From: a virus
DNA length: 29,384 nt
IMG/VR virus record: IMGVR_UViG_3300045999_008693
Location: 1 to 29,384 of that record
Strand: one strand, 5' to 3'
The translations under genes were made by a program, and so were the position numbers. The notes beneath the pieces were generated by a model, which had not been told where the DNA came from, did no database searches, and saw only the letters and a list, made by a program, of their open reading frames with translations. Shown one piece after another: positions 2,466 to 29,384 of this stretch. The first letter of the stretch is position 1, and each line of letters opens with the position of its first letter.

Positions 2466-3905
2466 ATGACTGCAATAACAAGAAATAGAGAACTTTCTCA
2501 ATTCGGTTCTTTTATCTTTGTTGATGATTCAAATCAAAATGTTGCAATCACTACAGATTCTTCTCGTTTTGTTGGAATAGGATCTACAGTTCCAACATCA
2601 AAACTTGTTGTGTCAGGTGACGTAAGAATTTCCGGAGTTGTAACTGCAACAAGTTTTACTGGATCAAGTTTTATAGGAACTGCAACTAATGCATCTAATG
2701 CAGTTTATTCTGAAGTTTCTGGATTATCAACGGTTGCATCTATTGCCAATTACGCTATAGTTTCTGGACTATCAACCGTCGCATCTGGAATAGGATCCAC
2801 GAGTAGTATAAACACTTCTGGTATTATTACAGCATCTGCATTTTATTTGAATGGTGCTTTGATTATTAATCCCGAAGTATCTACTTGGGATTATCCTGGA
2901 ACTGCAGGACTCGCTCATACTGTTTATCGTTTAGGTAATGTTGGAATAGGAACTTCTGTAGGTATTAATGAAAAGTTAGTTGTAGATGGTAATGTTTCTG
3001 CAAGTCGTTACACTTCAACAGTTGCTTCTGGAACTGCACCACTTACCGTATCTTCAAGTACTCTTGTTACTAATTTAAATGCAGACTTTTTGAGAGGAAA
3101 GGCTGCGCCATCTGGAGACATCGTTGGTACTACGGATTCTCAAACTCTTACCAATAAAACTCTTACTACTCCTACTGTTGGTAGTGCTGGTGCTAACTTT
3201 AGTGGATCGTCTGGATTAACTAATTTACGTGCATCAACATCAGCATCGGGAACACTTACACTTCCAGCAGAAACTGGTACTCTTATTAGTACTGCAAGTG
3301 TTGGGGTAGTCACTTCAGGTAATATTTTAAATGGAACAATTTTAAATGAAGATATCAATGCCTCTGCAGGTATTGCGGTATCAAAGTTAGCGGCATCTAC
3401 AATTTCTGGTATTACTTTAGGAAATAATTTAAATTCTCTTTCTTTTGGTTCATATTTAACTGCAGGAAGTTCATATAATGGATCATCTTCGGTTTCTGTT
3501 TCTGTAGCTGGAACTACTTTAAACACAGGAGATACCTTAGTCGCAAGAAATGCGTCTGGAGATTTCTCTGCAGGATCTATTAATTGTTCATACCTAACTG
3601 CTTCATTTACAGTAGAAGCACTTGACTTTAATTCTACCAGTGACTTAAATCTCAAAACCAATGTGAATACCATTGAGAACTCTTTGGATATTGTAAATTC
3701 ACTAAGAGGAGTTTCTTTTGATTGGAAGGTGAATGGCAACAAATCATATGGTGTAATTGCACAAGAACTTGAAGAAGTTCTTCCTGATCTTGTAACAACA
3801 AAGGATAATAAATCAGTAAATTATAATGGACTTGTTGGAGTATTAATTCAGGCAGTTAAAGAACTTTCTGCTGAAGTAGAAGAACTTAAGAAAAAAATAC
3901 AGTAA
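2466..3905 (+). CDS. Tail fibre protein with C-terminal S74 chaperone domain
   Basis: A 479-aa fibre without Gly-X-Y repeats. The body is Ser/Thr/Gly-rich beta-structure with short recurrences (VSGLSTVAS twice near residues 84-108; GIGTS/GIGST motifs). It includes the 'GTTDSQTLTNKTLTTPTVGSA' type segment that recurs in many phage tail fibres near residue 220. The last 90 residues form an S74 chaperone ([49 protein letters not shown]) with a terminal coiled coil. A good ribosome site (AAGGAG at 2454-2459) supports this start. The same C-terminal domain as in the gene before suggests that chaperone domains are swapped between fibre genes. Confidence 0.92.
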   Translation: MTAITRNRELSQFGSFIFVDDSNQNVAITTDSSRFVGIGSTVPTSKLVVSGDVRISGVVTATSFTGSSFIGTATNASNAVYSEVSGLSTVASIANYAIVSGLSTVASGIGSTSSINTSGIITASAFYLNGALIINPEVSTWDYPGTAGLAHTVYRLGNVGIGTSVGINEKLVVDGNVSASRYTSTVASGTAPLTVSSSTLVTNLNADFLRGKAAPSGDIVGTTDSQTLTNKTLTTPTVGSAGANFSGSSGLTNLRASTSASGTLTLPAETGTLISTASVGVVTSGNILNGTILNEDINASAGIAVSKLAASTISGITLGNNLNSLSFGSYLTAGSSYNGSSSVSVSVAGTTLNTGDTLVARNASGDFSAGSINCSYLTASFTVEALDFNSTSDLNLKTNVNTIENSLDIVNSLRGVSFDWKVNGNKSYGVIAQELEEVLPDLVTTKDNKSVNYNGLVGVLIQAVKELSAEVEELKKKIQ

Positions 3906-19992: not shown

Positions 19993-20420
19993 TGCACTAC
20001 CTTGATATAACTGGTTATGGTGCGCGTAGGAGACGCTGCAAGGGCACTGTTTCCTGGTTCCTTCATAAGTACCTACCCAGACATCATATTGCCGTAGAGG
20101 TCCTTCACAGAGGTCTTCGTAGGGAGCAATCCTACGGTTACTGTTCTGTGTCTGGTGACATCTATCGTCCTCGTGAGTTTCTGATTGAGATTGATCCCAA
20201 ACTTGATCTGGAACTTTATACAAAGACCATTATCCATGAGTTAATTCACTTGCGTCAATGGGTAAAAGGTCTTCTCAAAGAACGTAGAGGTAAGATGTAT
20301 TACAAAAACATCAACTGTGATGATCTTGATTACTGGGATCAACCACATGAAGTAGAAGCACACTCACTTGAACAAATGTATTACGAAGACTACTTGACAG
20401 ACACCCATCAATCCATGTAG
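19992..20420 (+). CDS. SprT-like zinc metalloprotease (142 aa)
   Basis: The zinc-binding motif HELIH is at residues 82-86 in 'YTKTIIHELIHLRQWVKG'. A downstream acidic cluster 'WDQPHEVEAHSLEQ' (115-128) probably gives the third ligand. The N-terminus is basic (GARRRRCKG). Length and layout fit short SprT/WSS1-like phage metallopeptidases. In other organisms such proteins cut DNA-bound proteins, but the phage target is unknown. It is translated through the TAATG junction with the 34-aa ORF. It starts the early region and could act in host takeover (inference). Confidence 0.8.
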   Translation: MHYLDITGYGARRRRCKGTVSWFLHKYLPRHHIAVEVLHRGLRREQSYGYCSVSGDIYRPREFLIEIDPKLDLELYTKTIIHELIHLRQWVKGLLKERRGKMYYKNINCDDLDYWDQPHEVEAHSLEQMYYEDYLTDTHQSM

Positions 20421-20423
20421 ACT
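20394..20423 (+). promoter_or_regulatory. Possible sigma70 promoter TTGACA-18-TAGACT
   Basis: TTGACA at 20394-20399 is a perfect -35; TAGACT at 20418-20423 matches the -10 at four of six positions. It overlaps the end of the metalloprotease gene and could drive the next unit from 20472. Only sequence match supports it. Confidence 0.35.
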
Positions 20424-20471
20424 ACCTTTGTCCTGGTTGATAGAAAAGCTTTAAGTACACATCAAAACACT

Positions 20472-20672
20472 ATGAACACCAAGAAAAAATTCATCAACGT
20501 TCAACCAAAGAGTTCTAAGGCAAAGAACCGATTCGTAAACATTATGCAATCACTTCATGCAATGGAGGTGGAACAAGAAACTGAAGATAAGTTCTTCTTA
20601 GTTTCTCTCAATCGCCAATACTGCACTTGGGTGCCTAAGAGTGGAAATGAACATTGGGAGATTATTAAATGA
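20472..20672 (+). CDS. Small basic early protein (66 aa)
   Basis: It starts MNTKKKFINVQPKSSKAKNR, followed by 'FVNIMQSLHAMEVEQETEDKFFLVSLN' and 'YCTWVPKSGNEHWEI'. The basic first third and 'RFVN.M.....EVE....F.LVSLN...C.WV...GN.HW' pattern recall a short protein common in cyanophage early regions. The function is unknown. The stop overlaps the RlpA-like start by ATGA, so the two are coupled. Confidence 0.72.
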   Translation: MNTKKKFINVQPKSSKAKNRFVNIMQSLHAMEVEQETEDKFFLVSLNRQYCTWVPKSGNEHWEIIK

Positions 20673-20980
20673 TTGGATTAATCGCAGCACTTACTTGTGG
20701 AATTTCTACATACTATGGAGTAGGAGACGGATTTCATGGACAAACTACGGCAAATGGTGAGCGGTTTGATGCTTATCGTTGGACTGCAGCTCATCCTTAT
20801 CTACCTATGGGTACACGCATACGGGTAACAAATCAGGATAATGGTAAGCAAGTAATTGTTCGTATCAATGATCGTGGACCGTATTCTCATGCTGATTTAG
20901 ATTTGTCTTATGCTGCCTTTGCGCACATTCAGTCTGTAAAAAAAGGTAACGCTGTCGTTTGTTGGAGGGTTGTTGGATGA
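20669..20980 (+). CDS. RlpA-like double-psi beta-barrel protein (103 aa)
   Basis: The short hydrophobic N-terminus (MIGLIAALTCGIST) may be an export signal. Then comes the whole RlpA-type double-psi barrel: 'YYGVGDGFHGQTTANGERFD', 'WTAAHPYLPMGTRIRVTNQDNGK' and 'VIVRINDRGPYSHADLDLS'. E31 (NGE), H42 (AAH) and D68 (IND) match the positions held to be catalytic in bacterial RlpA lytic transglycosylases, which cut denuded peptidoglycan. There is no SPOR domain. It therefore could nick host peptidoglycan or act as an expansin-like binder. It sits between coupled genes (ATGA on both sides), and the next gene has a signal peptide. The phage role, such as lysis aid or superinfection block, is inference. 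Confidence 0.86.
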   Translation: MIGLIAALTCGISTYYGVGDGFHGQTTANGERFDAYRWTAAHPYLPMGTRIRVTNQDNGKQVIVRINDRGPYSHADLDLSYAAFAHIQSVKKGNAVVCWRVVG

Positions 20981-21357
20981 AAAAACTGATTGTTCTTGCC
21001 GCACTTTTGTTTTCCTCTCCTGCCTTTGCTCAGGAAACTAAAACTTATCGTCCATTTCGTTATGAGACTGCATGTATGTTGGAATCAGGAGTTCAAACTT
21101 ATCCTGATGTATGTGTAGTGATTGAAACTCGTGAGACTGGTGGAGCACTTCGCACTCGTAATATCTTTTCTAACAAGCACGGACTTACAATCAAAGGACG
21201 TTTTGATAAAGAGAAAGGTTACATGACTTGGGATAGTCATAACAAATACGAATACAAGTGGGAATATAAGATCGGCGGTACTGGTGGAACTGATGGTCTT
21301 GGTGCCTGGACATATGTAATGCCAGGATTCCTACTACAAAATGTAAGTTGGGATTAA
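20977..21357 (+). CDS. Exported protein with signal peptide (126 aa)
   Basis: ATG 20977, in the ATGA overlap with the RlpA-like gene, gives a classic signal peptide: MKKLIVLAALLFSSPAFAQE with a cut expected after AFA. The mature part is about 107 residues, beta-rich, with two Cys (TACMLESGVQTYPDVCVVIE) and 'GGALRTRNIFSNKHGLTIKG'. I do not recognise the fold, but close relatives are typical of cyanophage accessory genes. Coupling to the RlpA-like protein suggests joint work in the periplasm. The frame extends upstream to 20959, but that would hide the signal. Confidence 0.82.
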   Translation: MKKLIVLAALLFSSPAFAQETKTYRPFRYETACMLESGVQTYPDVCVVIETRETGGALRTRNIFSNKHGLTIKGRFDKEKGYMTWDSHNKYEYKWEYKIGGTGGTDGLGAWTYVMPGFLLQNVSWD

Positions 21358-21408
21358 TTATTAAAAAATCATAAACTACCTTAAATAGTAGTAGAATAGG
21401 AGAAAACT

Positions 21409-21573
21409 ATGGTTGTATTTCTCACGGCAACCATAATCAGCTGCAGCGATGCATTGAGTGTTATTCAACGTATCTCAAGAGTTGTTGGATTAACTGAACT
21501 TCAAAAAACTGAAATCATTCACGAAATCCGCAAAGTTATCCCTTCCTGTCCCGTTAAAGTAGTAAAAAAATGA
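21409..21573 (+). CDS. Small protein (54 aa), first of a four-gene coupled string
   Basis: ATG 21409 follows AGGAG at 21399-21403. It encodes MVVFLTATIISCSDALSVIQ, then 'LTELQKTEIIHEIRKVIPSCPVKVVKK'. The start 'VVFLTATIISCSDAL' resembles a short cyanophage protein with a hydrophobic N-terminus. Its stop overlaps the next ATG (ATGA). The preceding gap (21358-21408) carries CTTAAATA at 21380-21387 as a possible late-type box. Confidence 0.68.
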   Translation: MVVFLTATIISCSDALSVIQRISRVVGLTELQKTEIIHEIRKVIPSCPVKVVKK

Positions 21574-21743
21574 CTGAAGAATCTCAAATTGACAAGTGGA
21601 ATCGTGGAGTGACTCTATTTGAAGAAAGTGTGTTGAAACCAGATCCTGAACTTCGTAACTGTGCTCACAACCAAAAGTGTTACAATGAACTCATGGCAGT
21701 ACGTGAACAAGTTCTGCAATATCTTAAAACTCTAAGACAATGA
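21570..21743 (+). CDS. Small soluble protein (57 aa)
   Basis: ATG 21570 overlaps the preceding stop. It encodes MTEESQIDKWNRGVTLFEES, followed by 'PELRNCAHNQKCYNELMAVREQVLQYLKTLRQ'. It is helical with a C-x5-C pair (NCAHNQKC) and has no membrane span. The stop overlaps the next ATG by ATGA. The coupling on both sides supports a real gene; the function is unknown. Confidence 0.7.
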   Translation: MTEESQIDKWNRGVTLFEESVLKPDPELRNCAHNQKCYNELMAVREQVLQYLKTLRQ

Positions 21744-21976
21744 GTTCATATACATTTTGGTTTGTTATTTTTGCTTTGCTCACCTATTTCATAGTTACAG
21801 ATAATAGTGTAGCGAGGGCATTTTATATGCTAACTCAACTGGCAAAAGTACAATATGAAAAAACAAAATGGTGGATACTACATAATCCAGCAAATCCAAT
21901 TGTAAAGTATTTGATATGGCGTAAGTCTATGAAACTTGCAGAAGAACTCATGAGAGAGTTTGAGGAAAAACAATGA
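21740..21976 (+). CDS. Single-span membrane miniprotein (78 aa)
   Basis: Residues 4-20 (YTFWFVIFALLTYFIVT) form one membrane helix. The rest is a helical basic and aromatic segment (KVQYEKTKWWILHNPAN, 'KYLIWRKSMKLAEELMREFEEKQ') probably on the cytoplasmic face. It lies between a soluble and an exported miniprotein, all coupled by ATGA. It may be an envelope-acting early protein; holin function cannot be claimed from one span and position. Confidence 0.7.
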   Translation: MSSYTFWFVIFALLTYFIVTDNSVARAFYMLTQLAKVQYEKTKWWILHNPANPIVKYLIWRKSMKLAEELMREFEEKQ

Positions 21977-22194
21977 AATATCTCATTCTTCTCTTACCTT
22001 TTATCACTCTTCCAGCAAGTGCAATTACTTGGAAAGAATTTTGGGAACCTTTTGAACCAAGAGTTTATTATAGAGAACCAATATGCACTCAAGATGTTTA
22101 CCGTGAGGAATATGTTCCAGGAGATAGGTGGAGACCTGGATATGTAAGATCTTGGAAAGAACGAGTAAGAGTCCCTTGCTGGCCCAGATATTGA
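21973..22194 (+). CDS. Exported miniprotein (73 aa)
   Basis: The signal peptide MKYLILLLPFITLPASA is followed by a 56-residue mature part rich in Trp, Arg, Tyr and Pro (WKEFWEPFEPRVYYREP, 'YVPGDRWRPGYVRSWKERVRVPCWPRY') with two Cys that may form a disulfide. No family is recognised. The arginine- and tryptophan-rich mature part suggests wall or membrane binding, which is inference. It is the last gene before a hairpin terminator. Confidence 0.72.
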   Translation: MKYLILLLPFITLPASAITWKEFWEPFEPRVYYREPICTQDVYREEYVPGDRWRPGYVRSWKERVRVPCWPRY

Positions 22195-22202
22195 ACTGTC
22201 AC

Positions 22203-22234
22203 AAGACCCCTTGATTTTTCCGTCAGGGGGTCTT
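22203..22234 (+). terminator. 12-bp hairpin terminator overlapping a promoter
   Basis: AAGACCCCTTGA (22203-22214) pairs with TCAGGGGGTCTT (22223-22234), with one G-T pair and an 8-base loop TTTTTCCG. It follows the exported miniprotein gene. There is no T run beyond TCTTATA, so efficiency is uncertain. Confidence 0.75.
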
Positions 22235-22239
22235 ATAGT
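22211..22239 (+). promoter_or_regulatory. Sigma70-type early promoter TTGATT-17-TATAGT
   Basis: TTGATT (22211-22216) and TATAGT (22234-22239) are exactly 17 bases apart. The -35 lies in the stem and loop of the terminator and the -10 overlaps its last base. TATAGTATGTGCATAC resembles the sequence after the 19.85-kb terminator. It would drive the zinc-ribbon gene at 22262. Confidence 0.62.
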
Positions 22240-22261
22240 ATGTGCATACAAGTCAAGAGCA

Positions 22262-22876
22262 ATGACCTACACAGCGAAACTCAAAGTTCAATTTGATACT
22301 GAATGGACCCAAACTTATGGCGGATCTGGAATCTATGATGATGAAACTCTTCCTGAAGAGCATTATACCTTTGAGATTCCTTGCGAAGACATTAACGCCA
22401 TTCAGTTGTTTCGTTTCTTTGCAACTATTGCCCGTGCAATGGGGCATAATGAAATCGGCATTATGAAAGGTGCTTGTTCACTTGCATTTAATGATATGCG
22501 TAGTGAAGAAGATATGAAAAAGATTGCTTATGAGTTTGATCTTAAACTCTCTGAAGAGTATTCAAAAGAATTTGCTGAGATGCAGGATGAGATTTATGAT
22601 CTGAAAGCAAAACTGTCTCGCTGTCAGCAACCTGATAATCCAAACTACACAGAGGAAGAAATGGATGCTCTCTGCTCTCAAAACGAAATTACTGCTGATA
22701 TTCTAAAAAGTGCTGAAGTTGTTTGTAGAGATTGTGGAAGTAAATATGGTCATTATTCAGTAGGTTGTTCTTCTACTTGGACTGGAACTTGTAATGTATG
22801 TGGTCAGGAAAAAAGTATTACAGAGGTAAGAGATTGGAATTACCTAAAAGAAGGTATTGATAAACTTTCTAAATAA
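22262..22876 (+). CDS. Zinc-ribbon protein (204 aa)
   Basis: ATG 22262 starts MTYTAKLKVQFDTEWTQTYG, 22 bases after the early -10. Upstream in-frame codons lie inside the terminator and are unlikely to be used. Residues 30-110 are mixed, with a helical stretch (EEYSKEFAEMQDEIYDLKAKL). The last 50 residues hold two CxxC pairs (VVCRDCGSKYG and GTCNVCGQEKS), a zinc ribbon, then 'ITEVRDWNYLKEGIDKL'. Such ribbons in phages often bind nucleic acid or host RNA polymerase, but nothing here fixes the target. Confidence 0.72.
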   Translation: MTYTAKLKVQFDTEWTQTYGGSGIYDDETLPEEHYTFEIPCEDINAIQLFRFFATIARAMGHNEIGIMKGACSLAFNDMRSEEDMKKIAYEFDLKLSEEYSKEFAEMQDEIYDLKAKLSRCQQPDNPNYTEEEMDALCSQNEITADILKSAEVVCRDCGSKYGHYSVGCSSTWTGTCNVCGQEKSITEVRDWNYLKEGIDKLSK

Positions 22877-22914
22877 TAATATCTGTTGAAACCGCAATCT
22901 CTACAGATAAGATT

Positions 22915-22937
22915 AGGTGCTCTTTGGGCACCTTTTC
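22915..22937 (+). terminator. Terminator hairpin inside element A
   Basis: AGGTGCTC (22915-22922) pairs with GGGCACCT (22926-22933), one G-T pair, loop TTT, followed by TTTC. It ends the zinc-ribbon transcription unit ahead of the HNH gene. Confidence 0.78.
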
Positions 22938-22940
22938 TTG

Positions 22941-22948
22941 TATAAATA
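22941..22948 (+). promoter_or_regulatory. Perfect late promoter box TATAAATA before the HNH gene
   Basis: Exact T4 late consensus, 26 bases before ATG 22974. It lies between the two arms of the closing stem, so its transcript would start near 22954, inside the 3' arm and without the 5' arm. Confidence 0.65.
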
Positions 22949-22973
22949 CTAATGCGGTTTCAATAGAATAGAA

Positions 22974-23696
22974 ATGAATTACCTAAAGGTTTATTGTAAT
23001 CTTATCAGGAAAGCAGAGAATAGAACTCCTCCTGAAGGATATACCGAAAAACATCATACATTTCCAAAAGGTATTTTTGGTGATAATGAAAGAATTGTTG
23101 TTCTTACTTCAAGAGAACATTATGTTGCACATTTGTTATTGGAACAAATTTATATTAAAAGATATGGAATTCGTGATGAAAGAACAGAAAAAATGACTTT
23201 TGCTTGTCTTTTAATGAGAAGTCGTAGTGAAAAATATAATTCTCATTTATATGAAAAAATAAGAAAAAGACATAGTAAAAATATGAAAGAAAAAATGAAA
23301 GGTAAAGGAAATCCAAGATATGGAAAACCTGGATGTAATGGTGAAAAAAATGGAATGTATGGTAGTGAAAGATTTGGCGAATTAAATCCAATGTATGGTA
23401 AAAAACAAAGTGATAAAACAAAAGAATTGATAGGAAAAAAAGCAAAAGAAAGATACGAAAATGGATTTGTATCTCCAACTTTAGGTAAAAAATTGAGTGA
23501 AGAAAGAGTTCTTTATATGAGTAAAGAGTTTTGTGTTGTTAGTCCTGGTGGAGAAGTTATAAAAGGTATAAATCAAACTGAATTTTGCAGAAAAAATAAT
23601 TTAGGACAAGGTGCTTTTAATAGAATGTTAAATGGAAAGTATAAACATTATAAAGGATGGACACTTTACAAACCGCACACATCACTACCATATTAG
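22974..23696 (+). CDS. HNH homing endonuclease with NUMOD3/NUMOD1-like tail (240 aa)
   Basis: The HNH-type core is at residues about 23-53: 'GYTEKHHTFPKGIFGDNER' and 'VVLTSREHYVAHLLL', with H27/H28 and H49/H53 as metal and general-base candidates. Residues 105-165 are Gly/Asn/Lys-rich NUMOD3-like repeats (GKGNPRYGKPG, GMYGSERFGELNPMYGKK, PTLGKKLSEER). The last 55 residues are a NUMOD1-like DNA-binding helix region (SPGGEVIKGINQTEFCRKNN, 'GAFNRMLNGKYKHYKGW'). Such enzymes cut a specific site in phages lacking the gene and spread themselves. The final residues after KGW (TLYKPHTSLPY) are coded by DNA containing an 8-base copy of the upstream stem arm. The ribosome site is weak (AGAATAGAA). Confidence 0.85.
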   Translation: MNYLKVYCNLIRKAENRTPPEGYTEKHHTFPKGIFGDNERIVVLTSREHYVAHLLLEQIYIKRYGIRDERTEKMTFACLLMRSRSEKYNSHLYEKIRKRHSKNMKEKMKGKGNPRYGKPGCNGEKNGMYGSERFGELNPMYGKKQSDKTKELIGKKAKERYENGFVSPTLGKKLSEERVLYMSKEFCVVSPGGEVIKGINQTEFCRKNNLGQGAFNRMLNGKYKHYKGWTLYKPHTSLPY

Positions 23697-23705
23697 GTGA
23701 TTTTG

Positions 23706-23714
23706 TGGTATGAT
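23706..23714 (+). promoter_or_regulatory. Extended -10 early promoter TGGTATGAT
   Basis: TGG-TATGAT lies ten bases after the HNH stop. The 13 bases TGTGGTATGATAC recur exactly after the GIY-YIG gene (28014-28026), again followed by nn-TCATA. No good -35 is visible 17 bases upstream, so it would rely on the extended -10. It drives the gene at 23754. Confidence 0.55.
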
Positions 23715-23753
23715 ACAATCATACACATACAAAAGACCATACGGTAAAGTAAA

Positions 23754-24074
23754 ATGAGCGGTGGACATTTTGGTGACTGTGGTTACGATTACTACAAAGT
23801 AGCACAGTTTGCTGATGAGTTGGAAGTAGAAATCCAAAACAACAACAAACCAAGTGAGTATGAATATGCTCCTAATTTTTCTCCAGAAACCATCAAGTAT
23901 TTGAGGAAACAACTTCTCAAGATGCGTAAGATGGCAGAAATTATGAGGCATATTGATTATCTGTATAGTGGAGACCACGGAGAGGATAGTTTTATGTGGC
24001 GTGTGAAAGAAGTGGAGAAACACTGGAAAGAGTGTGAAGACCTTGCTACTCGTATGGATGGAGAGTATCAATGA
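23754..24074 (+). CDS. MSGGHF-type small protein (106 aa)
   Basis: It starts MSGGHFGDCGYDYYKVAQFA, the opening of a short protein widespread in phages, followed by helical charged sequence (IKYLRKQLLKMRKMAEIMRH, 'DYLYSGDHGEDSF', 'RVKEVEKHWKECEDL'). In this family 'MSGGHFDY...' and 'DW..SGD.GE..F' are the conserved parts; both are present here, the first slightly changed. No function is assigned. The stop overlaps the DUF4385 start by ATGA. Confidence 0.8.
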   Translation: MSGGHFGDCGYDYYKVAQFADELEVEIQNNNKPSEYEYAPNFSPETIKYLRKQLLKMRKMAEIMRHIDYLYSGDHGEDSFMWRVKEVEKHWKECEDLATRMDGEYQ

Positions 24075-24532
24075 AAGAGTTTGATTACTCTTTAGATTAC
24101 AAAAACTTGGACTTCACTGACATAAATATCAGAAAACTTTATCGTATTGGCAGAGGTGAACAAGGAGTGCTCCTTGTTAGGCCATATACAGACGATATAT
24201 GTGCCCACTGGAGGTTCAAGGATGTGGATACTGCTCGTAAATCTTCTACTAAGATATACGAAATGTATTGTGATTATAAACGACAGAAAGATTTCATTGG
24301 AATGGATATGGCACGGAAATTCCTTGAAATGGGATTCACTCGCGCCAGACGGTATGCGAATCATAAGAGCGGACGCAAATACGATACGAATCGTACCGTA
24401 TTGCCTCAAGAAGCAGACGCATTGGTGTCCGTTAAAGCGATGGCTGCGAGCATATTTAAAGAAATACGCGACAGGGTTGCCAAGGATCCAGAATATGTTA
24501 TGATGAGAAAAAAGTGGCGGGCAGAAGAATGA
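24071..24532 (+). CDS. DUF4385-family protein (153 aa)
   Basis: 'YSLDYKNLDFTDINIRKLYR', 'GRGEQGVLLVRPYTDDICAH' and 'DFIGMDMARKFLEMGFTRARRYANHKSGRKY' match the DUF4385 pattern, found in bacteria and phages and without assigned biochemistry. The 3' third (about 24340-24500) is visibly richer in G and C, with codons such as CGC, GCG and GCC unlike its neighbours, and contains an imperfect palindrome at 24378-24402. This suggests acquisition from another genome. Length is near the family norm. ATGA overlaps link it to both neighbours. Confidence 0.82.
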   Translation: MKEFDYSLDYKNLDFTDINIRKLYRIGRGEQGVLLVRPYTDDICAHWRFKDVDTARKSSTKIYEMYCDYKRQKDFIGMDMARKFLEMGFTRARRYANHKSGRKYDTNRTVLPQEADALVSVKAMAASIFKEIRDRVAKDPEYVMMRKKWRAEE

Positions 24533-24807
24533 AACTCATTCAATTTGGTGTAAGAAATGATTATGGAAAAGAGTGGTATATGACCGTTCTTACGGGAAAA
24601 CATTATTCACTTCTTCAAGCTGCTATTGATTATGGTGAATATGGTAGATGGATTGAACTGCCTTATTTTCAAATGAGTATGGGGTACGGTAGACTCCTAT
24701 CAGTTCTTTTTTCTATTGGACGAGTAGGATTTACTTTTGATATCGCTGGTAGGAATTGGCGCGATGAATTGTTTTATGTCCAATCAAATGAGGTGAAAAA
24801 TGACTGA
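24529..24807 (+). CDS. Small protein, paralogue of the one at 28926 (92 aa)
   Basis: ATG 24529 overlaps the DUF4385 stop. It encodes MKLIQFGVRNDYGKEWYMTV, then 'LLQAAIDYGEYGRWIELPYF', 'LLSVLFSIGRVGFTFDI' and 'WRDELFY'. The gene at 28926 shows the same pattern: GKEW..xVLT, LL near the middle, LPxF, LLSxxxxxxRxxFxFD and a W near the end. The function is unknown. The GTG at 24514 is not needed as a start. Confidence 0.75.
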   Translation: MKLIQFGVRNDYGKEWYMTVLTGKHYSLLQAAIDYGEYGRWIELPYFQMSMGYGRLLSVLFSIGRVGFTFDIAGRNWRDELFYVQSNEVKND

Positions 24808-25375
24808 TCTAACTCATGAAGAAATGCTTGAAGAAGCAGCAAAACGAGAGAAAGAAAATGAAGTATTGAAGATTGCTATTGACTTCATTGAAGAACATTC
24901 AGAAGCAATGAAACAACTTCGTAAGATTGAACATGAAGAACTGATGGAAGAATTGCAAGCAAAGAAGAAAGAAAACTTCCGACTGGTTGCAAAAGCATGT
25001 ATACAAGAGTATGAGAAGACATACAACCGTGATGTGTTCCCAGTGGATGAACACTGGGTGTATATGGTTGCTGAATACTTTGGCACAGGTGAAGGTCAAA
25101 CCACCTGTATTATGATGACACAGGCAAATCCTGGTCATGCAGAAGATTTTGAAACATCCACCAACAAGTATGTTGCTTGCACAACCAAAGAATATCGTGC
25201 GGTGCGTGAGTTTCATAAACAGTTTGGTACTTGGATGCTACACGGTTTAAAGTTTGTCACCAGAGAGGATTTCTTTGCAAATTATGCATATTATATTCCT
25301 CCAGTAATGATGAAACTGTCTAATAAACCATGTTATAAAACTTTCTACACTTACGTTCACTATAACTTCTCATAA
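24800..25375 (+). CDS. Unknown coiled-coil protein (191 aa)
   Basis: Residues 5-75 are acidic coiled coil (THEEMLEEAAKREKENEVLK, 'MKQLRKIEHEELMEELQAKKKENFR'). The rest is a small mixed domain with 'DEHWVYMVAEYFGTGEGQTTCI', 'TTKEYRAVREFHKQFGTWMLHG' and a Tyr-rich end. I do not recognise it. It overlaps the gene before by 8 bases and the next by one base (TAATG). Early regulatory or takeover roles are possible; nothing specific is visible. Confidence 0.7.
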   Translation: MTDLTHEEMLEEAAKREKENEVLKIAIDFIEEHSEAMKQLRKIEHEELMEELQAKKKENFRLVAKACIQEYEKTYNRDVFPVDEHWVYMVAEYFGTGEGQTTCIMMTQANPGHAEDFETSTNKYVACTTKEYRAVREFHKQFGTWMLHGLKFVTREDFFANYAYYIPPVMMKLSNKPCYKTFYTYVHYNFS

Positions 25376-25527
25376 TGGATTTCACAAAACGTCAACTTGT
25401 TCTCTTGACGACTGCACTCACTCTGTTTTATGATGAGATTGCAAAAACAGCACCCTCTGAAATGAAGGTGGAAGTTATGGAACTCGCTCAAATGATTCAA
25501 GATGTATATAATGAACGAGAAATCTAA
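25375..25527 (+). CDS. Small helical protein (50 aa)
   Basis: ATG 25375 overlaps the stop before (TAATG). It encodes MDFTKRQLVLLTTALTLFYD, then 'EIAKTAPSEMKVEVMELAQMIQDVYNEREI'. It is amphipathic and helical. Its 3' end overlaps the next gene in another frame by 17 bases. The tight coupling supports it as real; the function is unknown. Confidence 0.65.
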   Translation: MDFTKRQLVLLTTALTLFYDEIAKTAPSEMKVEVMELAQMIQDVYNEREI

Positions 25528-25684
25528 AATCTATTATAATGTTTGGTGCTGTGCATATCAACGCAGGGGACTATATAAAGGAACCGATAGAGAACATAGA
25601 GAGCACGAAACTGTTCGTATGTGTCTTGATATGAAAGACGTAAAGTTCTATCAATTTGATACTGAAAAACCGCATTATCTCTAA
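25511..25684 (+). CDS. Small basic protein (57 aa)
   Basis: ATG 25511 encodes MNEKSKIYYNVWCCAYQRRG, followed by 'YKGTDREHREHETVRMCLDMKDVKFYQFDTEKPHYL'. ATG 25502 would add MYI. It has a Cys-Cys pair and is His/Arg-rich but shows no complete zinc motif. The stop overlaps the next ATG (TAATG). The function is unknown. Confidence 0.65.
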   Translation: MNEKSKIYYNVWCCAYQRRGLYKGTDREHREHETVRMCLDMKDVKFYQFDTEKPHYL

Positions 25685-26049
25685 TGATATTCTCCAGACC
25701 AATTTTAGGAACTAATACCAAGAAAACTAAATTGTCTTGGTTTGAATACTACTGGCACTCCTGTATTATTCAGGGGTGGATGGGTTGTTTGTATGCCTTT
25801 AAGAATTGGTCGGACTTGATGGGTAATAACTATCAGGAATATGCTCTTCTTAAAACTGATGATCCATTGGAGATGTGTATTCTTTATTTCTGGGACAGTC
25901 TTGAAGATGAAATTTATCCAAAGCATTTCTTAGATAGTTTGCTTCAAATGGTTCATGATATTGATACTGGTAAGGAAAAAGTTGTTCCACTTGATGAAGA
26001 CTTCTTTGATAGAATGAAAGACCTTGTAAAAGATGTGGAGGTGGACTGA
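25684..26049 (+). CDS. Unknown early protein (121 aa)
   Basis: It is aromatic-rich at the start (SWFEYYWHSCIIQGWMGCLY). The C-terminal third has 'EIYPKHFLDSLLQMVHDIDTGKEKVVPLDEDFFDRMKDLV', the ending (P..F...L...V..I..G...V.PLDEDF..M..L) shared in outline with the 109-aa protein at 28441 and with many small cyanophage proteins. The function is unknown; it overlaps the next start by one base. Confidence 0.72.
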   Translation: MIFSRPILGTNTKKTKLSWFEYYWHSCIIQGWMGCLYAFKNWSDLMGNNYQEYALLKTDDPLEMCILYFWDSLEDEIYPKHFLDSLLQMVHDIDTGKEKVVPLDEDFFDRMKDLVKDVEVD

Positions 26050-26432
26050 TGGGGATGTTTGACTATGTGCGTTCTTCATATGATCTTGGAGAACAATTCA
26101 CAAATGTAGAACTACAGACCAAGGGACTTGCTTGTGCAATGGTAAGGTATTGGATTGCACCTGACGGTTGTTTGTATGAATTCACATATAAAGAAACTCA
26201 TACCTTTGAAGACATTAAAGAGGATGATGAGCGTTATGATCCAAAAAGAGGATTTTTAAACTTTGAATGGATACCAACAGGGAAACACGGTAAAGTAGAA
26301 CCTTGCAATGTGACTGATTATATTGAGGTTTATCCTGCAACTTGGGATGGACAGTGGGAAGACTGGCCCCGTTGCAGAATCCACTTCAAGCATGGTAGAG
26401 TGCTTGAGCACGAAGATGTCACTGGACGATGA
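26049..26432 (+). CDS. MGMFDYV-type conserved phage protein (127 aa)
   Basis: It starts MGMFDYVRSSYDLGEQFTNV, 'ELQTKGL', then 'YWIAPDGCLYEFTYKETHTF' and 'LNFEWIPTGKHGKVEPCNVTDYIEVYP', 'WEDWPRCRIHFKHGRV'. This whole layout is a protein common in phages and some bacteria, with 'GKV.P..IT.YIEVYP..W.G.WE.WP..RIHF..G' as its core. Beta-rich; no function is established to my knowledge. ATGA overlap with the next gene. Confidence 0.85.
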   Translation: MGMFDYVRSSYDLGEQFTNVELQTKGLACAMVRYWIAPDGCLYEFTYKETHTFEDIKEDDERYDPKRGFLNFEWIPTGKHGKVEPCNVTDYIEVYPATWDGQWEDWPRCRIHFKHGRVLEHEDVTGR

Positions 26433-26746
26433 TTTCCACTGATTTATTCCCCTACGAAAAGTTTGGATTTAGACTTGAGTTCGGTGAAAAAAAGAACCCA
26501 ACAATTTGTTGGTTTGAATGTCAAGAACACCTTGACAAATACTTAGAAAGATATAAACTGGATAAAAGAACTATTAAGATTGATTATCGCGATGAAAAAC
26601 CCACTGAGCCCAATAAAAAACACAAGAGAAGTGTGGAACAAAAACCTAAACCAAAAAGTAACGGAAGTGCAGGTTCAGTTCGCAAACGAAAATCCAGCGT
26701 GGATTCCAATAGAAACACTACTCGCAATACAAAATCTAAAAAATGA
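26429..26746 (+). CDS. Small protein with basic disordered tail (105 aa)
   Basis: Residues 1-50 form a compact domain (LFPYEKFGFRLEFGEKKNPT, 'ICWFECQEHLDKYLERYKLDKRTIKI'). The second half is lysine-, serine- and proline-rich and looks unfolded (KHKRSVEQKPKPKSNGSAG, 'SVRKRKSSVDSNRNTTRNTKSKK'). The front half matches a short domain frequent in cyanophage early proteins; the tail suits nucleic-acid binding (inference). It is coupled on both sides by ATGA. Confidence 0.72.
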   Translation: MISTDLFPYEKFGFRLEFGEKKNPTICWFECQEHLDKYLERYKLDKRTIKIDYRDEKPTEPNKKHKRSVEQKPKPKSNGSAGSVRKRKSSVDSNRNTTRNTKSKK

Positions 26747-27192
26747 CTGATGAACAACTTAATGCTATAATGATACATCCAGAGGTTGTGAAATCTATGA
26801 GAGATGAATATTATGGTATGAGTAAGTGGGAGTGGTGGATTGAAGGGTTTCGTAATATTCATTATATCTTTGATTGTTATAATGATGGGCATAAGTATGG
26901 ATATGGTGACTTCTGGGAGGGATTATCTATGGGGTATTATGAAATGTATATTTACCCATACGACGATTTGTATAATCCCACAATCTCAAAGGAAAGACAA
27001 CTGCGATTAGGACAAAAACCACCACAACGAAAAGTTCAACTGGTTATTGATGTGAGTAATTCATTTGTTGCTTATGATGATAATGGATTTACTATCTGTT
27101 CTCAACCAGATAGAGAAAAAGCAAATAGTTGTCTTGAATATTATAAATCTCAACACCCTGATGCTACTTTTTATGGGACTTGGGACACCTGA
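26743..27192 (+). CDS. Unknown aromatic-rich protein (149 aa)
   Basis: It starts MTDEQLNAIMIHPEVVKSMR, with a central Trp/Tyr-rich part (GMSKWEWWIEGFRNIHYIF, 'YGYGDFWEGLSMGYYEMYIYPYDDLY') and a C-terminal beta segment (KVQLVIDVSNSFVAYDDNGF). I do not recognise it. It is the last gene before endonuclease element B; its TGA runs into AATAAATA at 27192. Confidence 0.65.
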   Translation: MTDEQLNAIMIHPEVVKSMRDEYYGMSKWEWWIEGFRNIHYIFDCYNDGHKYGYGDFWEGLSMGYYEMYIYPYDDLYNPTISKERQLRLGQKPPQRKVQLVIDVSNSFVAYDDNGFTICSQPDREKANSCLEYYKSQHPDATFYGTWDT

Positions 27193-27199
27193 ATAAATA
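27192..27199 (+). promoter_or_regulatory. Late-promoter-like box AATAAATA upstream of element B
   Basis: AATAAATA overlaps the stop of the gene before. It lies upstream of the whole stem-loop cassette, so a transcript from here would include the 5' arm, unlike one from 27263. It may be chance in AT-rich DNA. Confidence 0.3.
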
Positions 27200-27234
27200 G
27201 TAGTGCTCTAATGAGTTCGCATCCATAAGAGTGG

Positions 27235-27258
27235 AAAAGGTGTCTTCGGGCACCTTTT
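27235..27258 (+). terminator. UUCG-capped terminator hairpin inside element B
   Basis: AAAAGGTGTC (27235-27244) pairs with GGCACCTTTT (27249-27258), one G-T pair, with loop TTCG closed by C-G, a very stable tetraloop. The T tract is part of the stem's 3' arm. It ends the preceding operon. Confidence 0.85.
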
Positions 27259-27262
27259 CTTG

Positions 27263-27270
27263 TATAAATA
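27263..27270 (+). promoter_or_regulatory. Perfect late promoter box TATAAATA before the GIY-YIG gene
   Basis: Exact T4 late consensus, 31 bases before ATG 27301. The surrounding CTTTTCTTGTATAAATA is identical to that in element A. A transcript would begin near 27276, within the 3' stem arm. Confidence 0.65.
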
Positions 27271-27300
27271 GTATTGCGAACTCAATTTAGAAGCAGAACT

Positions 27301-27999
27301 ATGGAAACCCTAAACAGGTTTTACACTTACGCATATTTGCGGGAAGACGGAACTCCTTACTATGTTGGTAAAGGTAAGGGAAGAAGGTTATATAAGAAAG
27401 GTAAAGGTGAAGTTGGAAAACCGACTGATAAATCCAAAATAATCTTTCTCAAACAAAATCTTACAGAAGAAGAAGCATTAAATCACGAAATCTATATGAT
27501 TGCTGTTCTTGGTAGGATAGATTTAGGAACAGGTATTTTGAGAAATAAAACTGATGGTGGTGATGGAATAAGTGGTTATAAGCATAGTGATGAAGCACTT
27601 TTTTCTCTTAGAGAAAGAATGATTGGTAATGAACTTTTTAAAGGATATATTCATTCTATAGAAACAAGAGAAAAAATAAGTAAAGCAAATAAAGGAAGAG
27701 TTTATACTGAAGAAAGAAATGAAAAGATTTCCCTATCAAAAATAGGACATAGTGTAAGTGAAGAAACAAAACAAAAATTGAGAGAGCATAATGTAAAATA
27801 TTTGTATGAAATAAAAGACCCAGAAGGGAACATTTACACAATAGATAATCTCAATTATTTCTGTAAAATGAATGGACTTGATACTGCTGCGATGCAGAGA
27901 GTTTGTTCTGGAAAACAAAAATCACACACTCCAAAAAGAAAAGATAGAGTTCCTAATGTGGTGGGATGGACGGTTCGCATACTGGAACATATCACTTGA
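27301..27999 (+). CDS. GIY-YIG homing endonuclease with NUMOD3/NUMOD1-like tail (232 aa)
   Basis: The GIY-YIG module is at residues 7-80: 'FYTYAYLREDGTPYYVGKGKGRR' supplies the two tyrosine strands and an arginine (R28/R29), and 'LTEEEALNHEIYMIAVLGR' the helix with the metal-binding Glu. Residues about 95-165 hold NUMOD3-like helices (SGYKHSDEALFSLRERMIGN, 'SIETREKISKANKGRVYTEE', 'IGHSVSEETKQKLREH'). The end is NUMOD1-like (IKDPEGNIYTIDNLNYFCK, 'AAMQRVCSG', 'VVGWTVR'). ATG 27301 is chosen; an upstream TTG at 27274 lies in the stem arm. Overall layout parallels the HNH gene at 22974, though the nuclease domains are unrelated. Its stop overlaps the -35 of the next promoter. Confidence 0.87.
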   Translation: METLNRFYTYAYLREDGTPYYVGKGKGRRLYKKGKGEVGKPTDKSKIIFLKQNLTEEEALNHEIYMIAVLGRIDLGTGILRNKTDGGDGISGYKHSDEALFSLRERMIGNELFKGYIHSIETREKISKANKGRVYTEERNEKISLSKIGHSVSEETKQKLREHNVKYLYEIKDPEGNIYTIDNLNYFCKMNGLDTAAMQRVCSGKQKSHTPKRKDRVPNVVGWTVRILEHIT

Positions 28000-28024
28000 A
28001 AACGGGTGCCCTCTGTGGTATGAT
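27996..28024 (+). promoter_or_regulatory. Sigma70-type early promoter TTGAAA-17-TATGAT
   Basis: TTGAAA (27996-28001) and TATGAT (28019-28024) are 17 bases apart, and a TG precedes the -10 in TGGTATGAT. The -35 overlaps the endonuclease stop codon. TGTGGTATGATAC is shared with the promoter after the HNH gene. It drives the gene string from 28047. Confidence 0.72.
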
Positions 28025-28046
28025 ACTCTCATAAGCAACCAAACCG

Positions 28047-28262
28047 ATGACTTCTCTTTCACCTCAAGCACAAGCAATCGTAGGTGTAATTTCAACTACC
28101 ATAGACAAACCTATGAACCGTATTGAGGTTGCTACTGCTGTTCTTCGGTCTTTGATTGATGAGTGTAGTGAAGTTCGGGGAACTGGAAGAGTTGATAAAA
28201 AAAATCAGGTAGTATCCGTAAAAACTTTGATGAAACTTGTTGACGAATTGGAGCAAATCTGA
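28047..28262 (+). CDS. Small early protein (71 aa)
   Basis: It starts MTSLSPQAQAIVGVISTTID, then 'MNRIEVATAVLRSLIDECSEV' and 'VVSVKTLMKLVDELEQI'. It is mostly helical. The opening 'LSPQAQAI..A' and 'A.VLRA..D' is a form common in small cyanophage proteins. Function unknown. It is the first gene behind the early promoter, and its stop overlaps the next ATG (TGATG). Confidence 0.72.
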   Translation: MTSLSPQAQAIVGVISTTIDKPMNRIEVATAVLRSLIDECSEVRGTGRVDKKNQVVSVKTLMKLVDELEQI

Positions 28263-28444
28263 TGACTGATACTTGGAAGAAATGGAACATTTATACATCC
28301 ATTTACCTCTTTGAGTATTGTGTGTTCTCTTGGAGAAATCATATGTGGAACCATCTTGATGGATTTGAGGATGATGAAGTTATAATGAGAGGACTATTTT
28401 GGTATTACTTGAACTACGGAAATATCAACACTTATTATAAATGA
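28262..28444 (+). CDS. Small aromatic protein (60 aa)
   Basis: It encodes MTDTWKKWNIYTSIYLFEYC, then 'VFSWRNHMWNHLDGFEDDEVIMRGLFWYYLNYGN'. It is rich in Trp and Tyr with no clear membrane helix. Start and stop overlap the neighbours by one and four bases. No family is recognised. Confidence 0.62.
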   Translation: MTDTWKKWNIYTSIYLFEYCVFSWRNHMWNHLDGFEDDEVIMRGLFWYYLNYGNINTYYK

Positions 28445-28770
28445 CCTTTCTTCATAAACTCATAATCACCAACAAGTATCTCCGTTACACTCCATTCTGG
28501 TGGTGGTGGAGGTTAATTTCGCATCAAGGATTCCGTTTTGATGATTACCACGTATGGAAAGAATTCTGGTTTTCATTGAATAGTGGTTGGGATAATATGG
28601 AATATGTTCATAAGTTTGAAGAGTTCTGGGGTAAAGGTTCTTATCCTCCAGAGAAGACTATTTTGCCAAAAGAGGACTTTGATTCTCTGGTAGAGAAACT
28701 AAATGAACCACCACAATATAATGAAAATCTTGCTAAACTATTAAATCGTAAAGCACCTTGGGATGACTAA
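28441..28770 (+). CDS. Unknown early protein with W-rich start (109 aa)
   Basis: 'YTPFWWWWRLISHQGFRFDDY' near residue 16 is the notable segment, with four Trp in a row. The end 'KTILPKEDFDSLVEKLNEPPQYNENLAKLLNRKAPWDD' matches the short C-terminal pattern of many cyanophage early proteins (I.LP.EDFD.LV..L..PP...E.L.KLL.RK.PWD). The function is unknown. ATGA overlap at its start and an 8-base overlap with the next gene. Confidence 0.72.
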   Translation: MTFLHKLIITNKYLRYTPFWWWWRLISHQGFRFDDYHVWKEFWFSLNSGWDNMEYVHKFEEFWGKGSYPPEKTILPKEDFDSLVEKLNEPPQYNENLAKLLNRKAPWDD

Positions 28771-28939
28771 ACCACTACCCACAAAAGAGACTCTTGATAT
28801 TCTATGGACTGTTGCCACCAGCTCCGCAATAGAAAGTGGCACAAGACCCCACATCCTCTTTGCCAGATTGCTGTATGATGAACTCAATGACATTAAACTC
28901 CCAGTTGGACTTGCTGAACTGAAAGATGAAACTCTTTGA
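28763..28939 (+). CDS. Small early protein (58 aa)
   Basis: ATG 28763 opens MTKPLPTKETLDILWTVATS, followed by 'SAIESGTRPHILFARLLYDELNDIKLPVGLAELKDETL'. It is helical with no motif. It overlaps both neighbours in other frames (8 and 14 bases), as usual in this packed string. The function is unknown. Confidence 0.65.
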   Translation: MTKPLPTKETLDILWTVATSSAIESGTRPHILFARLLYDELNDIKLPVGLAELKDETL

Positions 28940-29189
28940 TTATGAAACTTATGAAGATTTTGGGAAGGAGTGGTTCTTCCAAGTTCTCACATCCCGTAGG
29001 TTTGCTCTGTTGGATATTACAGTTCAATGGGATGATTTTGGTTGCGATGCCATCCTCCCAGAATTTTCTTTGTGTATCAACTCTGCTACGTTGCTTTCAT
29101 TTTTCATCCGATACAAAAGATTTCAATTTGATTTGAGTGTAATTACTGCACGACCCAGAGACCTTCGTTGGTATAAAGAACACAAATGA
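28926..29189 (+). CDS. Small protein, paralogue of the one at 24529 (87 aa)
   Basis: It encodes MKLFDYETYEDFGKEWFFQV, 'LTSRRFALLDITVQWDDFG', 'ILPEFSLCINSATLLSFFIRYKRFQFDLSV' and 'WYKEHK'. GKEW..xVLT, LPxF, LLS and R..F.FD are shared with the 92-aa protein at 24529, so the two probably arose by duplication with later divergence. Function unknown. Its stop overlaps the next start (ATGA). Confidence 0.75.
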   Translation: MKLFDYETYEDFGKEWFFQVLTSRRFALLDITVQWDDFGCDAILPEFSLCINSATLLSFFIRYKRFQFDLSVITARPRDLRWYKEHK

Positions 29190-29384
29190 CTGACATTTCT
29201 AAACTTTCTTTCAAAGAACTCCAACAACTTGAAAAACAAATTGAAGAACGAAAAGAACTTCTAAAACAATCAAAGGATTGTGTTGAAGGATATAAAATCA
29301 CCTTCTGTGTGAAGTTTAATCCTGCTGACCATCAATTTGATGAATTGAAAAGTCCAGAAGAGTTTGGTGATTACTTGGCAATAT
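29186..29384 (+). CDS. Start of an early protein cut by the window end (partial)
   Basis: ATG 29186 overlaps the preceding stop. At least 66 residues are visible: a coiled coil (MTDISKLSFKELQQLEKQIE, 'ERKELLKQSKD') then 'GYKITFCVKFNPADHQFDELKSPEEFGDYLAI'. The coiled coil followed by a small beta domain is a frequent design in this phage group. The C-terminus lies outside the window. Confidence 0.7.
   Translation, partial: MTDISKLSFKELQQLEKQIEERKELLKQSKDCVEGYKITFCVKFNPADHQFDELKSPEEFGDYLAI

Follow-up and report, generated by a model that had tools for sequence, protein, structure and literature searches.

A late-only leader logic is known for the endonuclease genes I-TevI, I-TevII, I-TevIII, segB and Aeh1 mobE (PMC2988022), and in the T4 genes e, soc and 49, which are late genes, a leader helix prevents expression from long early RNA (PMC3014915). 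In Aeh1 mobE, an RNA hairpin sequesters the ribosome site and the late promoter lies within the hairpin, according to the work of Gibb and Edgell (2007, 2009) reviewed in PMC2988022. Here we describe two leader elements, A and B, found in a 29.4-kb virus-record fragment (IMG/VR record IMGVR_UViG_3300045999_008693, hereafter the window), each of which precedes a freestanding homing endonuclease gene and consists of complementary arms that enclose a terminator-like hairpin and a late promoter box. The element, which we refer to as a lock, very probably controls both transcription and translation of the gene behind it. A T4-like cyanophage (Kyanoviridae) is indicated by the genes and TATAAATA promoters of the window and by the Synechococcus phages that are its nearest named relatives. 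The parts of the two elements and the genes behind them are as follows.

22882–22896, plus strand: 5′ arm of the long-range stem of element A, TCTGTTGAAACCGCA (RNA fold, covariation).
22880–22909, plus strand: local small hairpin of element A, TATCTGT with ACAGATA (pre-promoter fold, family-wide test).
22915–22933, plus strand: nested intrinsic-terminator-like hairpin of element A, followed by TTTTCTT (fold; helix 2 of the alignment).
22941–22948, plus strand: T4-type late promoter box TATAAATA of element A, predicted start near 22954 (consensus and spacing; PMC2984593, PMC2988020).
22953–22967, plus strand: 3′ arm of element A, TGCGGTTTCAATAGA, 6 nt upstream of the ATG at 22974 (sequence, fold).
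22974–23696, plus strand: homing endonuclease gene A, HNH/MobE-like, with NUMOD3 (homology, PHROG).
27212–27221, plus strand: 5′ arm core of element B, TGAGTTCGCA; the fold reaches outward to 27204 (RNA fold).
27233–27260, plus strand: nested terminator-like hairpin of element B, AAAAGGTGTCTTCGGGCACCTTTT (RNA fold).
27263–27270, plus strand: late promoter box TATAAATA of element B, predicted start near 27276 (motif).
27275–27284, plus strand: 3′ arm core of element B, TGCGAACTCA, 16 nt upstream of the ATG at 27301 (sequence, fold).
27301–27999, plus strand: homing endonuclease gene B, GIY-YIG-type N-terminus YTYAYLREDGTPYYVGKG, with NUMOD3 (motifs).

A preliminary description of the window had placed the elements at 22882–22967 and 27208–27290, and both are there, on the plus strand, with their parts as it described them. 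The predicted RNA fold of element A is −41.6 kcal/mol (z −9.3) and that of element B −40.8 kcal/mol (z −5.7), none of the 200 shuffles made of each element being as good, whereas the RNAs that would begin at the late start do not stand out in their folding (z 0.25 and −0.67, respectively). Both core stems named earlier were recovered, 27212–27221 pairing with 27275–27284 in element B; in element A the stem proved longer than the 10 pairs first described, with 15 pairs joining 22882–22896 to 22953–22967. The compensated triplet by which the two stems differ is real, and compensation of this kind is seen again among 57 related elements whose arms differ. The small hairpin that had been ascribed to both elements is clear in A, where 22880–22886 pairs with 22903–22909; for B the predictions favour another local fold.

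The family was collected from IMG/VR by scanning for CCTTTTCTTGTATAAATA and for relatives of both endonucleases, and each TATAAATA site was searched for complementary arms. Arms with a score of at least 24 straddle the late promoter at 187 of 327 distinct TATAAATA sites, compared with 1 of 327 after letter shuffling; the sampling favoured the core and these enzymes, so the fraction with arms is no census, and what counts is the difference from the nulls. In a larger set, restricted to Watson-Crick pairs, long complementary arms were found at 192 of 357 distinct TATAAATA sites in cyanophage DNA. Swapping of partners between elements of this set leaves 15 to 25 with arms, a count that is inflated because many elements have arm sequences in common.

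The arms covary at the RNA level. Two-sided compensatory changes were seen at 14 of the 15 arm pairs in an alignment of the 57 elements, with a covariation score of 0.622 against 0.207 ± 0.011 for shuffled alignments and 0.10–0.19 when the partner is slid. The rows were picked for having arms, and different ones, which biases the percentage paired upward; the shuffles and the partner-swap null address this bias. RNAalifold recovers the same long stem unaided, and the nested terminator hairpin, G+C-rich and with a U run behind it as in intrinsic terminators, is helix 2 across the alignment, with a conserved CCTTTT. The preliminary description had named, as evidence that would refute its reading, homologues that keep the primary sequence and break the pairing. 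The opposite was observed: sequence diverges, pairing is kept, and among imperfect pairs the G.U type outnumbers the A.C type by 52 to 15 (p = 6e-6) under scoring that is symmetric for G.T and A.C, which argues for selection on the sense-strand RNA rather than on DNA. In these G.U pairs it is almost always the 5′ arm that supplies the G, which agrees with a G-poor 3′ arm. An Rfam covariance-model search of positions 20000–29384 gave no relevant match. Our own covariance model overlooks locks with a different core (Sf-CH5, MC09), though these are obvious by eye.

Position relative to the late start and the start codon is tightly constrained. The 3′ arm begins 3–5 nt after TATAAATA in 173 of the 187 sites, which fits the I-TevI-like promoter geometry proposed at the outset. 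In T4 the late box occupies −13 to −6, roughly one turn upstream of the start (PMC2988020), and cyanophages use the late promoter NATAAATA (PMC2984593). From the two spacings combined, the first bases of late RNA would be the innermost ones of the 3′ arm, and the 5′ arm and the terminator would be left out. The ATG follows 5–16 nt downstream of the 3′ arm in nearly all cases, and the stem covers about −20 to −8 relative to it. Opening of −18 to +6 is predicted to cost a mean of 15.0 kcal/mol in read-through RNA and 3.9 kcal/mol in late RNA, the predicted gap exceeding 5 kcal/mol in 138 of 139 elements. Many 3′ arms also hold an ATG at the predicted late start (22952–22954 in the window, within TAATGC), which is sometimes in frame with the endonuclease (L158, L208).

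The locks precede homing endonuclease genes. Among 148 non-redundant open reading frames (ORFs) that follow locks, 134 match endonuclease motifs, representing four GIY-YIG-type N-termini and two HNH types, one of them MobE-like; the other 14 are mostly similar to endonucleases or NUMOD proteins, and hidden Markov searches agree. Of the 14 endonuclease ORFs of phage S-SRM01 that have TATAAATA upstream, 8 have arms, compared with 0 of 15 other late genes (p = 7e-4). The product of gene A is 26–35% identical to MobE and has PHROG matches to phrog_655 and phrog_2081. Pfam matches to gene B are confined to NUMOD3, and the motif YTYAYLR..YYVGKG is present in it; Pfam GIY-YIG is matched by 8 of 144 lock-associated ORFs. 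The two enzymes had been taken for unrelated nucleases, and their catalytic classes do differ, HNH/MobE-like against GIY-YIG motifs, but they are not wholly unrelated, since the NUMOD3 DNA-binding region and three of five PHROG matches are common to both. GIY-YIG-type endonucleases are evidently misannotated as ‘translation initiation factor 2’ in S-SRM01, B23 and Sf-CH5 (L225 12515–13273, L311 2001–2624 and L312 1995–2417).

The same lock occurs with different enzymes. More than one enzyme type is found in 11 of 32 clusters of near-identical locks: the lock of element B is identical base for base to one that precedes a YKITF-type (GIY-YIG) enzyme in L082, and that of element A is nearly the same as one in L237 that precedes a YIGQT-type enzyme. 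In the other direction, many different arms are found within a single enzyme family. The leader therefore moves between genes, as was first suspected from two copies. Locks within one genome showed no significant avoidance of a common arm (0 of 43 pairs alike, 1.1 expected).

The lock most likely keeps endonuclease genes silent until late infection, a reading that draws on the analogy with T4 and Aeh1 (PMC2988022) and on predicted folding, from which we infer termination, late initiation and translational silencing. RNA polymerase coming from upstream early promoters would reach the nested terminator, where most transcripts should stop. Any read-through RNA, carrying both arms, would fold the 20-odd nucleotides immediately upstream of the start codon into the long stem and block ribosomes. 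Late in infection the phage late sigma factor gp55 would use TATAAATA, and the RNA, with the innermost base of the 3′ arm as its first and without the 5′ arm and the terminator, would have an open leader and be translated. The lock behaves as a module in which arm sequence drifts freely as long as the arms pair, and which recombines between nuclease genes.

Among named phages, locks are present in S-SRM01 (seven standard), B23 (three), S-B68, MC09 and Sf-CH5; endonucleases that lie between late genes in S-N03, RN05-S and ACG-2014f have none, and B23 gp280 (after the capsid gene) and S-PM2 F-CphI (after psbA) have the terminator and promoter without arms. This trend is in keeping with a need to silence early read-through and suggests that locks go with early gene context, with exceptions. 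When flanks were mapped to S-SRM01 for early or late context, nearly all MobE-like relatives were locked, making the test uninformative, and several ‘no lock’ calls were traced to wrong starts taken from the ATG inside the 3′ arm. A comparison of empty sites through the gene after gene A gave promoterless junctions in most genomes, with differing gene order. A search with the gene upstream of B gave a single relative.

Some observations weigh against late-only control as outlined. A canonical Shine-Dalgarno sequence is rare between the 3′ arm and the ATG, 85 of 139 elements lacking even GGA, GAG or AGG, and we have accordingly restated the translational block as occlusion of the leader instead of pairing of a ribosome site. 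The match between locks and early context is imperfect, with locks among structural genes in L001, L029 and S-SRM01 (126148). An endonuclease among early genes, that at S-SRM01 162245 (flanked by uvsX and the helicase gene), is at least one example of a late promoter without arms. Lastly, the U run of the element B terminator partly sits in the hairpin stem, so the strength of termination is unsure.

Other leaders in these phages depart from the standard form. A variant lock in S-SRM01 (L226, ~126125–126190), before an endonuclease VII-like gene, is a 15–20 bp hairpin whose loop is the late promoter, with the ATG within the 3′ arm and no terminator. The uvsX/helicase endonuclease of S-SRM01 (L227, 12214–12245) has no lock and carries a short hairpin, AGTATGGTTAGTAACCATACT, inside its late leader, which recalls seg43 of Aeromonas phage 25. 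F-CphI of S-PM2 (L331, 690–745) is a collaborative-homing enzyme encoded beside psbA, with its terminator fused to TATAAATA.

The small hairpin raises the possibility of a more elaborate device. The outer 5′ arm pairs with a local segment just after it in 89 of 114 distinct arms (score of at least 11), compared with 37 after swapping and 20 after shuffling. In element A, the 5′ strand of the small hairpin doubles as the outer 5′ arm, in competition with the long stem, and RNA that does not yet include the 3′ arm is predicted to fold into this hairpin; in element B the corresponding hairpin is not the best fold. Two partners for the same 5′-arm bases suggest an ordered folding path, as a lead and not a demonstration. 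Tentatively, the leader may thus be a kinetic RNA switch, in which the outer 5′ arm has mutually exclusive conserved partners, the local one first and then the distal one, with termination and the translational block occurring in order and the unit circulating independently of the enzyme.

An alternative is that the terminator and late promoter are all that matter, the long stem serving as a target of RNase III or a stabilizer through which the early mRNA upstream is trimmed or protected. Processing commonly takes place at long RNA duplexes, and the armless fused terminator-late promoter before S-PM2 F-CphI and after the B23 capsid gene would accord with it. The arms, however, are missing where the same core drives non-nuclease genes. 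The exact terminator-promoter core was found at 102 sites, 93 of which have strong arms; three more precede endonucleases and have slightly shorter arms, and the remaining six, all before non-endonuclease genes, are armless. A lock relic in L113 (~3031–3120) keeps the 5′ arm, small hairpin, terminator and promoter and has lost the 3′ arm and nuclease, with a baseplate hub gene directly behind; at the matching site in L001 and L029 lock and nuclease are both kept. Recombination between two TATAAATA boxes would leave such a relic, and its pattern of loss indicates that the 3′ arm goes with the nuclease. Together with the fixed short distance between the 3′ arm and the endonuclease start codon, the armless cores tie the arms to the downstream rather than the upstream gene, and we consider a processing or stability role unlikely.

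It is also improbable, and strongly so, that the arms act as DNA, whether as a cruciform, a recombination site or an operator through which the endonuclease represses its own gene, as T4 I-TevI does. I-TevI and its relatives do bind operators that overlap late or middle promoters (PMC2988022), and the arms surround a promoter, but a DNA site would not account for the large excess of G.U over A.C pairs or for arms that keep one orientation with respect to start codon and start site, and arm sequence varies freely and independently of the enzyme, with the same arms before different enzymes and different arms within one family. That the pairing is mere baggage, kept through recent ancestry of all copies from one endonuclease leader, would agree with the conserved arm flanks and core and with recurring lock clusters, but the family has 67 distinct 8-mer 3′ arms whose partners match, and its covariation is three times that of the shuffles, for which continuing selection on pairing is needed, leaving this explanation a negligible chance.

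Locked endonucleases are often followed by promoters of another type. Two such features lie in the window.

23704–23716, plus strand: sigma70-type −10 region TGTGGTATGATAC after gene A, ahead of the next early gene (family-wide enrichment).
27996–28024, plus strand: sigma70-like promoter TTGAAA-17-TATGAT after gene B (motif).

The sequence TGTGGTATGATAC follows gene B as well as gene A. A sigma70-like promoter (at least 10 of 12 matches) was detected within 140 nt after 38% of locked endonucleases, compared with 8% of other ORFs and 5% in shuffled sequence, an enrichment of about fivefold (p = 4e-9). Such promoters would let early transcription resume beyond the terminator. Promoters of this style are found elsewhere in these phages too. 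Several of these downstream promoters overlap a terminator hairpin (e.g., L011, L012).

As in T4-type hairpin-occluded leaders, the lock has a homing endonuclease ORF downstream, a predicted stem, backed by covariation, over the start region of RNA initiated upstream, and a late promoter between the strands. The consensus Shine-Dalgarno that is paired in the stem of such leaders is mostly absent in canonical form, and the locks are therefore filed as a variant that works like the T4-type leaders rather than as plain members. We checked the Aeh1 mobE leader (L224) directly and found a 12-bp hairpin, TTTGCACCCTCT/AGAGGGTGCAAA, around the late promoter CTCTAAATA, directly before the ATG. MobE is a freestanding HNH endonuclease homologous to gene A (26.5% identity), but its leader has no nested terminator or small hairpin, the late box is at the edge of a short hairpin, a Shine-Dalgarno-like run lies inside the stem, and the leader is not common to other enzyme classes. 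The leaders of T4 I-TevI, I-TevII, I-TevIII and segB (PMC2988022) resemble the lock in that the structure forms only on early or middle transcripts and the late promoter excludes the 5′ strand. They differ in that introns encode I-TevI, I-TevII and I-TevIII, the leaders sequester a clear Shine-Dalgarno and have no terminator described in the stem, and they are single cases rather than an exchanged cassette. T4 e, soc and 49 likewise have a leader helix on long early RNA; they are structural, lysis or recombination genes and not a mobile module, and no nested terminator is described for them (PMC3014915). S-PM2 F-CphI and B23 gp280 are cyanophage endonucleases preceded by a terminator fused to TATAAATA, but the flanking arms are absent, leaving the core without the lock.

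A literature search, incomplete in coverage, found no paper reporting the lock arrangement in cyanophages. The regulatory logic is known; what is new is that the leader encloses a terminator, has a standard architecture, is modular and is prevalent in cyanophages. Dozens of matched arm pairs provide a natural collection for studying translational repression by RNA structure, and the reason why endonucleases must be late becomes testable by comparing genes in which the lock is kept, lost or bypassed. Late-only endonuclease hairpins previously comprised a handful of T-even and Aeromonas cases, whereas in cyanophages the main types of freestanding endonuclease have the lock as their standard leader, compact, mobile between enzyme types and with a terminator added.

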